From assembly GCA_025360645.1 (NCBI GenBank), contig JANYBT010000108.1:1-64000 (forward strand): a DNA stretch of 64,000 nucleotides, written 5' to 3'. The position numbers and the translations under genes are program-made. Positions 60,438 through 63,464 of the stretch are shown piece after piece. Numbering within the stretch: the first letter of the stretch is position 1; every line of letters begins with the position of its first letter. Under the pieces are notes generated by a model, which worked only from the letters and a program-made list of their open reading frames with translations, was not told the origin of the DNA and ran no database searches. Origin of the DNA: Acidobacteriaceae bacterium. GTDB taxonomy: Bacteria > Acidobacteriota > Terriglobia > Terriglobales > Acidobacteriaceae.

Positions 60438-62846
60438 TCAGTTCGCCAGTACTTTTTCCCGCTCTTCCGCGTCCTGTTTTTCCTGCCGCGGAGTGGCCGG
60501 AAGCATCAATTGCAGCGCTTCCTCAATCAGCTTCACGTAATGCACGTTCAAACCTTCCAGTTGTTCCGGGGTCAGGTCTTCCAGAACATTCGTTTTGTTC
60601 TCCGCCGGAAGAATCACGTCTCGTACGCCGGCTCGTTTGGCAGCCAAGACCTTTTCCTTGATGCCTCCCACCGGCAGCACATTCCCACTGAGCGTGATCT
60701 CCCCCGTCATCGCGGTCAGCGGACGCACCGGGCGTTCCGTCAACAAAGACACTAGCGCGGTCGCCATGGTCACGCCCGCAGAGGGCCCGTCCTTCGGAAT
60801 CGCACCCGCAGGAACGTGGATGTGCAAGTCGTGCTCCGCGAAGAAACTCTCCGCAATCCCCAGCGACACTGCATTCGACCGTACCCAGGTCAGCGCCGCT
60901 TGCATGGATTCCTGCATCACCTGCCCGATCTGTCCGGTCATGGTGAAGTTCCCTTTGCCCTTCATCTTGTTGGCTTCGATAAACAGAATGTCGCCTCCGG
61001 ACGGCGTCCAGGCCAGGCCGACTGCCACCCCCGCCCGTTTGGTGCGCTCCGCAATCTCGCCTTCGGTGCGCACTTTGATTCCGCCCAGAAATTCCTGCAC
61101 CACTTCCGGCGTCACCACCAGCGGCTCCGTTTTGCCCTCCGCCATCCTCCGCGCTTGCTTGCGGCAAATGGTGCCAATGTTCCGCTCCAGGCTGCGAACT
61201 CCCGCTTCCCGCGTGTAGTGCCGAATCACGTGCCGCGTTCCCGCTTCCGGAAAGTCAATCTGCTCTTTCGTGATCCCGTTCTCTTCTATCTGCCTCGGAA
61301 TCAAGTACTGATACGCAATGTGTACTTTCTCCTCTTCGGTGTAGCCCTGCAGTTCGATGATCTCCATGCGGTCGCGCATCGGCTCTGCGATGGGATCCAG
61401 CATGTTGGCCGTGGTGATGAACAACACCTGCGACAAATCGAACATCACGTCCAGGTAGTTGTCGCGGAAAGTCGAGTTCTGTTCCGGGTCCAGCGCTTCC
61501 AGTAAGGCCGACGCTGGATCCCCGCGAAAATCGCGTCCCACCTTGTCGATTTCGTCCAACATGAAGACCGGATCTTTGGTCTCCGCCCGCCGAATCCCCT
61601 GGATGATTTGTCCCGGCAACGCCCCAATGTAGGTCCGCCGATGGCCCCGAATCTCCGCCTCGTCATGCACTCCGCCCAGCGACAGCCGCACGAACTTCCG
61701 TCCCAGCGCCCGCGCGATGGACTTCCCCAGCGAGGTCTTCCCCACTCCCGGAGGCCCTACAAAGCACAGAATGGGTCCCTTCATTCCGGGCTTTAACCGC
61801 CGCACGGAAAGGTAATCCAGGATGCGATCTTTGACCTTCTGCAGATCGTAGTGGTCCTCGTCTAGAATTTCTTTCGCTTTCAAAATGTCCACTTCGCCGC
61901 CGGAGGTTTTCGACCATGGCAACACCGCCAGCCACTCAATGTAGTTGCGGGTCACCGAATAGTCCGCCGCCATCGGCGACATGCGAGCCAGGCGCCCCAA
62001 TTCTTTCAGTGCCTCTTTCTTTACATCGTCCGGCATCCCCGCTTGCTCGATCTTGGTCTTCAGGTCTTCGTTGTCGCGCTGGCCTTCGTCCTGCTCCCCC
62101 AGCTCTTTTTGAATGGCCTTCATCTGCTCCCGCAGATAGTATTCGCGCTGCGTCTGCTGGACCTTGTCCTGCACCTCGCTCTGGATCTTGTTGCGCAACT
62201 GCTGCACTTCCAACTCTTTCGCCAGGTGCTGGTTGATCTTTTCCAATCGCACTCGCACGTCGGTGGTTTCCAGCGTGTCCTGCTTGTCCGCGGTCGAAAG
62301 AGCCGGCAGTGACGACGTGATGAAATCCACCAGCCGCCCCGGCTCTTCAATGTTCATCGCCACCGTCGACAGTTCGTCCGACAGCGTGGGAGACCCCGAC
62401 ACAATTTGCTGGAACAACGTCAGCACATTCCGCTGCAATGCTTCGATTTGCGAATCCTGCGGCGGAATGGTCTCCGCAATCGGCGTGACCGTCGCCATCA
62501 TGAACGGAGCCAATTGCGTGAACTCTTTCACCCGCACCCGTTCCAGGCCTTCCGCAAATACGAACAGGCTCTGGTTGGGCATCTTCACTACTTTGTGCAC
62601 CACCGCCAGCGACCCCACTTCATACAAATCTGTGGGCTGGGGAGAATCCACCCGCGCTTCCCGCTGCGCCACCACCACAATCGTCTTGTCTTCCCCGAGC
62701 GAATTGATCAGTTGCACTGAGCTTTCCCGCCCCACCGTCAGCGGCAACACCGCGTGCGGAAAAAGCACCGTGTCGCGCACCGGCAACACCGGCAACGCTC
62801 GTTCCTGGCTTAGGTTGGAGCCCTTTTCTTCGACTTCGTCGCTCAT
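60438..62846 (-). CDS. lon: ATP-dependent protease Lon
   Basis: 802 residues. N-terminal LonN domain ([19 protein letters not shown]), coiled coil ([19 protein letters not shown]), AAA+ domain with Walker [11 protein letters not shown] and Walker [12 protein letters not shown], and a C-terminal protease domain with the Ser-Lys dyad: S689 in KDGPSAG and K732 in the KEK of GGIKEK (spacing 43, as in E. coli S679/K722). ATG 62846 has AAGGAGT five bases upstream. A HAIR operator overlaps that ribosome site, indicating heat-shock control. Confidence 0.97.
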
Positions 62847-62854
62847 TTTTACTC

Positions 62855-62875
62855 CTTGAGTGTAACTCACTCAAC
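62855..62875. promoter_or_regulatory. HAIR operator (HspR-type) overlapping the lon ribosome site
   Basis: CTTGAGT-GTAACTC-ACTCAAC matches the HspR-associated inverted repeat CTTGAGT-N7-ACTCAAG at 13 of 14 arm positions. It lies 9-29 bases upstream of the lon ATG and overlaps its Shine-Dalgarno. In actinobacteria HspR represses lon, clpB and dnaK through this element (family knowledge). No hspR gene is in the window. Confidence 0.75.
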
Positions 62876-62901
62876 CTTGGATGCCCACTCGCTCGCATAA
62901 G

Positions 62902-62927
62902 ATTCAACCAACCCTATCTTGTTGAAT
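62902..62927. promoter_or_regulatory. Second inverted repeat upstream of lon
   Basis: ATTCAAC (62902-62908) and GTTGAAT (62921-62927) form a perfect 7-bp inverted repeat with a 12-bp centre, 27 bp beyond the HAIR. A TATAGT on the minus strand at about 62932-62927 overlaps one arm and could be part of the promoter. Function is inferred only from position. Confidence 0.35.
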
Positions 62928-63065: not shown

Positions 63066-63464
63066 CTACCGATTGAGTGCCTTCTCTGCCACAAACACGT
63101 GCTTGGCCTTGTCCCCTTTGAATACCATCTCGGTCAGCACGAGCTCTTTGGCGGTGTTGGTCGTGTACATGCGCTCGCTCTTCGTCGCTGGCTCAGTGAG
63201 TGGAACCAGAGTGCAGTTAACTTTTGCTTCCATTTTCTTGAACGACGCCACTTTCCGGAATACCATCACATGATTGGCCCCGTCCATGGTGTGCCGCACA
63301 TCATACTCCCCTTCGGGCAGCAACACCTCGCCCACCCACACCGGTCCGGTGAAGGTCACTGTTCGCAAATCCGAAACTCCATACTGGTTGGTTTTGGCCA
63401 CACTCACCGCACCCACTACCATCACGAATACTGCAAGCACAGCCAGCATTTTCATTACTCGCAT
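63066..63464 (-). CDS. Small secreted protein of unknown function
   Basis: 132 residues, start 63464 with GGAAGG six bases upstream. Signal peptide VMKMLAVLAVFVMVVGAVSVA. The mature part is a small beta-rich domain (TVTFTGPVWVGEVLLPEGEYDVRH, NHVMVFRKVASFKK, AKHVFVAEKAL) of a kind frequent in acidobacterial exported proteins; no enzyme motif is visible. It has its own terminator and an unusual array of 11-bp repeats about 55 bp upstream, so it is probably a separately regulated single gene. Confidence 0.75.
   Translation of the reverse strand: MRVMKMLAVLAVFVMVVGAVSVAKTNQYGVSDLRTVTFTGPVWVGEVLLPEGEYDVRHTMDGANHVMVFRKVASFKKMEAKVNCTLVPLTEPATKSERMYTTNTAKELVLTEMVFKGDKAKHVFVAEKALNR

Follow-up and report, generated by a model that had tools for sequence, protein, structure and literature searches.

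In Streptomyces, HspR acts through HAIR operators on a regulon of dnaK, clpB and lon; the consensus TTGAGY-N7-ACTCAA and the assignment of dnaK and lon as targets are given in a paper represented here, like the others cited, by excerpts (PMC2687793). The same excerpt assigns lonB, dnaK, clpB, hsp20 and ftsH to the HspR regulon of Deinococcus radiodurans, whose heat shock also needs the sigma factor Sig1 (PMC6888292). In Corynebacterium glutamicum, the ECF sigma factor SigH and HspR belong to one heat-shock network (PMC3489674). Further, HAIR-like operators of the Helicobacter and Campylobacter HspR/HrcA systems lie on heat-shock promoters (PMC6102357, PMC7464140). The targets there are groESL, hrcA-grpE-dnaK and cbpA-type operons; the excerpts of these two papers do not name lon as a target, and the word lon does not appear in PMC3489674. 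Among titles in the open-access literature, we found no report of HspR control in Acidobacteria.

Here, we describe a HAIR directly before lon in an Acidobacteriaceae bacterium, in a stretch of DNA of 64,000 nucleotides (the window). As in the Streptomyces regulon, the consensus is the same, dnaK and lon are the predicted targets, and dnaK, dnaJ and hspR share one locus; as in D. radiodurans, HspR occurs outside the actinobacteria with dnaK and a lon-type target. HspR control of lon had been ascribed mainly to actinobacteria in the first-pass annotation of this DNA, a statement left incomplete by lonB in the Deinococcus regulon (PMC2687793). The system differs from that of Streptomyces in its phylum, in that no HAIR was found at clpB or at hspR itself, in the gene order dnaK-dnaJ-transporter-hspR, and in a predicted sigma-E/ECF-like promoter with the operator placed just after the -10 element. 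It also differs from that of D. radiodurans, where the excerpt lists clpB, hsp20 and ftsH as targets, since neither a HAIR at clpB nor an hsp20 gene was found here. A predicted ECF-type promoter combined with a probable HspR site recalls the SigH/HspR network of C. glutamicum (excerpt of PMC3489674), with both elements fused at lon and dnaK in the present case.

The lon gene (60438-62846, minus strand) encodes an 802-aa ATP-dependent protease La, a standard endopeptidase La by TIGR00763 (958 bits against a cut-off of 608) and by its Pfam Lon domains. The sequence CTTGAGT-N7-ACTCAAC at 62855-62875 agrees with the HspR site at 13 of 14 arm positions and reads GTTGAGT-N7-ACTCAAG on the lon (minus) strand. 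It lies 8 bases from the lon ATG at 62846 and overlaps the ribosome site AAGGAG (62852-62857, minus strand, read off the sequence); the position directly before lon and the overlap are as the first-pass annotation had described them. The last three bases of the HAIR are the first three of AAGGAG. This overlap is a consequence of the very short predicted leader. On the minus strand, the order toward lon is a predicted -35 element TGAATCTT (62906-62899), a predicted -10 element CATCCAA (62883-62877), the HAIR, the ribosome site and the ATG. Further upstream of lon lies a 132-aa ORF (window 63066-63464, minus strand) with no Pfam match, and a second lon gene, 38% identical and without a HAIR, is located on the same contig, some 11 kb past the lon of the window (G000:C26:73744-74448).

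The letters of the HAIR are by themselves at chance level, so that its significance must rest on place and conservation. Roughly one 13/14 match is to be expected in a genome; this 3.8-Mb genome contains two, as does the reversed control, and 79 sites with at most three mismatches compare with 161 in the control. The other 13/14 site (C97:63807) overlaps the 5' portion of a presumably HAD-like ORF and was taken as chance. The dnaK site is among the matches with two mismatches; for one further stretch of this class the ORFs were listed, and none is a heat-shock gene.

Conservation before lon, whose failure the first-pass annotation had named as grounds for abandoning the site, is found in relatives. 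Among 48 family genomes, a lon orthologue was read in 45 (G024, G041 and G045 lack it and have at most a second lon). A HAIR of at least 12/14 was present in 22 of the 45 upstreams versus 3 of 9000 shuffled ones, and the core TTGA-N9-ACTCA in 31 of 45 versus 0 of 9000, the core being absent from the remaining 14. Outside the family neither was found in any of 19 lon upstreams, nor did any of the six upstreams of second lon genes carry a HAIR or the core. A further scan of lon upstreams covering 76 of 80 loci (four with too little upstream) gave 11/14 as its best match. Two forms of the site occur in the family. One, the form seen in this genome, is a near-perfect HAIR located in most cases 7-8 bases upstream of the ATG; the other is a degenerate TTGATA-N7-ACTCA that abuts the start codon and is also found in Granulicella and Edaphobacter contigs. 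The case for an HspR operator is strongest for the near-perfect form. In the neighbouring family f2, the lon upstreams (e.g. L196, L198, L188) have no HAIR; some of them (G051, G052, G054) carry a TTGACATNATCAA-like palindrome, perhaps another control site.

The HAIR is accompanied by a predicted promoter that had been missed in the first reading. We defined a composite motif, CATCNAA-N0-4-NTTGA-N9-ACTCA, in which the HAIR follows just after CATCNAA. In 80 relatives it gave 48 matches in 28 genomes, with none in the reversed control; judged by location and sequence of the site, 22 precede lon, 24 precede dnaK and two are elsewhere. One of these two falls inside an ORF of G021 that we take to be mutY-like, and the other is at G040:C314. 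When 398 family genomes were searched for the GAG form of the motif, 123 had a single copy each (reversed control, 2 of 398). All 123 were read, and by tblastn lon lies directly downstream in 121, the other two ending at contig edges. At the arm positions left free in the search pattern, these 123 sites have T or C at position 7 in every case, A at position 20 in 120 and G at position 21 in 117, and thereby follow the HspR consensus TTGAGY-N7-ACTCAA (PMC2687793).

A -35-like pattern, G[CAG]A[TA]C[CT], was defined on 22 sites and tested on 100 hold-out sites, 92 of which have the element at the expected place, compared with 33 of 3050 controls in which the position was shifted 5 to 29 bases upstream. 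The lon sites thus share a conserved -35 and a conserved -10 element a fixed distance apart, as in ECF-type promoters. Promoters of the sigma-E type have the form GGAACTT/TCAAA, and the lon elements resemble it, which points to a stress-type promoter of the sigma-E/ECF-like class lying under the operator. A strict regular expression combining both elements matched 24 of the 45 lon upstreams in the family, none of the 19 from outside it, none of the six belonging to second lon genes and 13 of 9000 shuffled sequences; the other 21 family upstreams have variants of the element or are without it. No sigma-70 promoter was found in a scan before lon, and when the promoter pattern was used to seek the sigma gene in the genome itself, three places matched, with no sigma gene among them. 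Overall, transcription of lon seems to be driven by a sigma-E/ECF-like promoter whose predicted start is covered by an HspR operator.

A similar arrangement exists at dnaK, one of the places where the first-pass annotation had advised looking for further HAIRs. The dnaK promoter of this genome holds a 12/14 HAIR that spans TTGACA-N17-TATTAT and follows CATCTAA, so that a single operator may control two dnaK promoters. A dnaK match was obtained in 70 genomes; in the 47 of these that were read (30 taken by rank and 17 selected), TTGA-N9-ACTCA precedes dnaK in 45, and G024 and G051 have GCTCA instead. The same expectation failed for clpB, where none of 30 loci read out of 39 matches has the core or more than 10/14 (the start is possibly misplaced in about five, whose first codons are un-ClpB-like), and for hsp20, as no HSP20 gene was found with PF00011. 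Similarly, no HAIR was found before hspR in the 28 of 30 loci that were read, the best match being 10/14.

HAIR sites also occur before groES in G007, G014 and G028, the last of which has none at lon. In G014 (L304:1791) the site lies between groES and a divergent metallopeptidase-like ORF, presumably of the M48 type, and groES has a CIRCE-like repeat further downstream. A perfect HAIR precedes groES-groEL in G007 (L221:1501-1521), and its letters include GAGTGCTAA, half a CIRCE site of HrcA by the consensus excerpted from PMC9004370; HAIR and CIRCE operators may overlap there.

The search for hspR proposed in the first-pass annotation was successful, and the reading does not fall for want of the gene. 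A Pfam MerR_1 profile search of the genome gave five matches, of which the one at C114:1610-2002 has the NCBIfam HspR model as its best. This gene shares its contig with dnaJ and dnaK and lies at the dnaK/dnaJ locus. Against the equivalog NF047375 its protein scored 101.6 bits (L005:1339-1731; next unrelated model, 54 bits), below the cut-off of 105, and is therefore HspR-like by that test; automatic annotation may narrowly miss acidobacterial HspR at this standard cut-off. The HspR model matched in 15 of 15 family members scanned, with an almost invariant DNA-binding region, and 76 of the 80 relatives gave a strong hspR match (E 1.2e-33 or better), all except G008, G019 (76% complete), G069 and G077. 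In G008, the dnaJ-hspR pair usually downstream of dnaK is missing and its position is taken by other genes (G008:C7:27000-38000, L325). This genome is rated 100% complete and has no detected hspR, yet degenerate sites persist before its lon and dnaK; hspR may have been lost recently or fall into an assembly gap, or the sites may have another binder.

Judged from sequence and its conservation, the HAIR at 62855-62875 is very probably an HspR operator. We further consider it likely that this operator sits on a sigma-E/ECF-like promoter and blocks the start of transcription, with lon and dnaK induced together. In such a scheme, lon would be read from the predicted -35 and -10 elements by a sigma factor of the presumed sigma-E/ECF class, and HspR, binding just downstream of the -10 element so as to cover the predicted transcription start, would block the promoter. 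DnaK is reportedly the corepressor of HspR in Streptomyces. Heat or misfolded protein would then occupy DnaK and leave HspR without its corepressor, and lon and dnaK would be induced together. In Granulicella, dnaK and lon2 transcripts are both lowered under high sugar (PMC7074687, excerpt), which fits co-regulation weakly, as lon2 may be a lon gene other than the one considered here.

The conserved block could instead serve purely as a promoter element, the HAIR being recognized by a different MerR-type regulator or HspR being inactive at lon. The G008 sites retained without a detectable hspR are in line with this, as is the left arm of the dnaK sites, which doubles as the TTGACA -35 element. 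Points against the HspR reading itself are that no HAIR was found at clpB and hspR, which are HAIR targets elsewhere (30 and 28 loci), that the HspR match falls below its family cut-off, that the core is absent from 14 of the 45 family lon upstreams, and that the sigma gene search gave no candidate. Against the alternative, the arms agree with the HspR consensus at each letter, and the other four MerR_1 matches of the genome are less similar to HspR in sequence, which makes this explanation unlikely.

A palindrome touching a ribosome site might also act in the mRNA as a hairpin that hides it, for example as an RNA thermometer. If the HAIR is transcribed in full, the predicted fold of the leader has an energy of -10.4 kcal/mol (z -2.1), and the ribosome site is reached by the right arm. 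However, the predicted start is inside the left arm, and removal of the first four bases of the arm brings z to -0.48; the GGAG is unpaired in the predicted fold, and the same motif is found in the dnaK promoter, far from the dnaK ribosome site. Arm pair 1/21 is unpairable in 44 of the 123 sites and pair 7/15 in 47, without compensation, while the letters keep the HspR consensus, which argues for a DNA operator and leaves the hairpin very unlikely.

A second inverted repeat, ATTCAAC (62902-62908) and GTTGAAT (62921-62927), had been put forward as a site for a further factor. Its two perfect 7-base arms exist as described, although the gap to the HAIR is 26 bases and not 27. Among the 45 family lon upstreams only that of this genome has the repeat, and its ATTCAAC arm overlaps the conserved -35-like element; we judge it a chance repeat, and its binding of another factor is scarcely to be expected. 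That the HAIR itself is a chance palindrome, as its expected frequency and the second match overlapping an ORF start might suggest, has a negligible probability, since 123 of 398 genomes conserve it at this position, in 74 distinct 21-mers.

HspR control of lon very probably represents, as far as comparative sequence evidence goes, a known kind of system in a new lineage. More tentatively, and with somewhat less than even confidence, we propose that the family possesses a two-gene switch for protein quality, in which one ECF-type sigma factor and HspR would act on a fused promoter-operator placed almost only before dnaK and lon, and an envelope-type signal together with loss of the HspR brake would give full induction. 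Under this proposal, lon would have come under HspR in a separate event from those in actinobacteria and Deinococcus, and in one branch the operator would be decaying or sliding onto the start codon. The HspR reading extends control of lon to another phylum and joins a stress promoter to a repressor site in like fashion at a chaperone gene (dnaK) and a protease gene (lon). It would thus provide a directly testable heat-shock circuit for the Acidobacteriota, an abundant and little-studied soil phylum.
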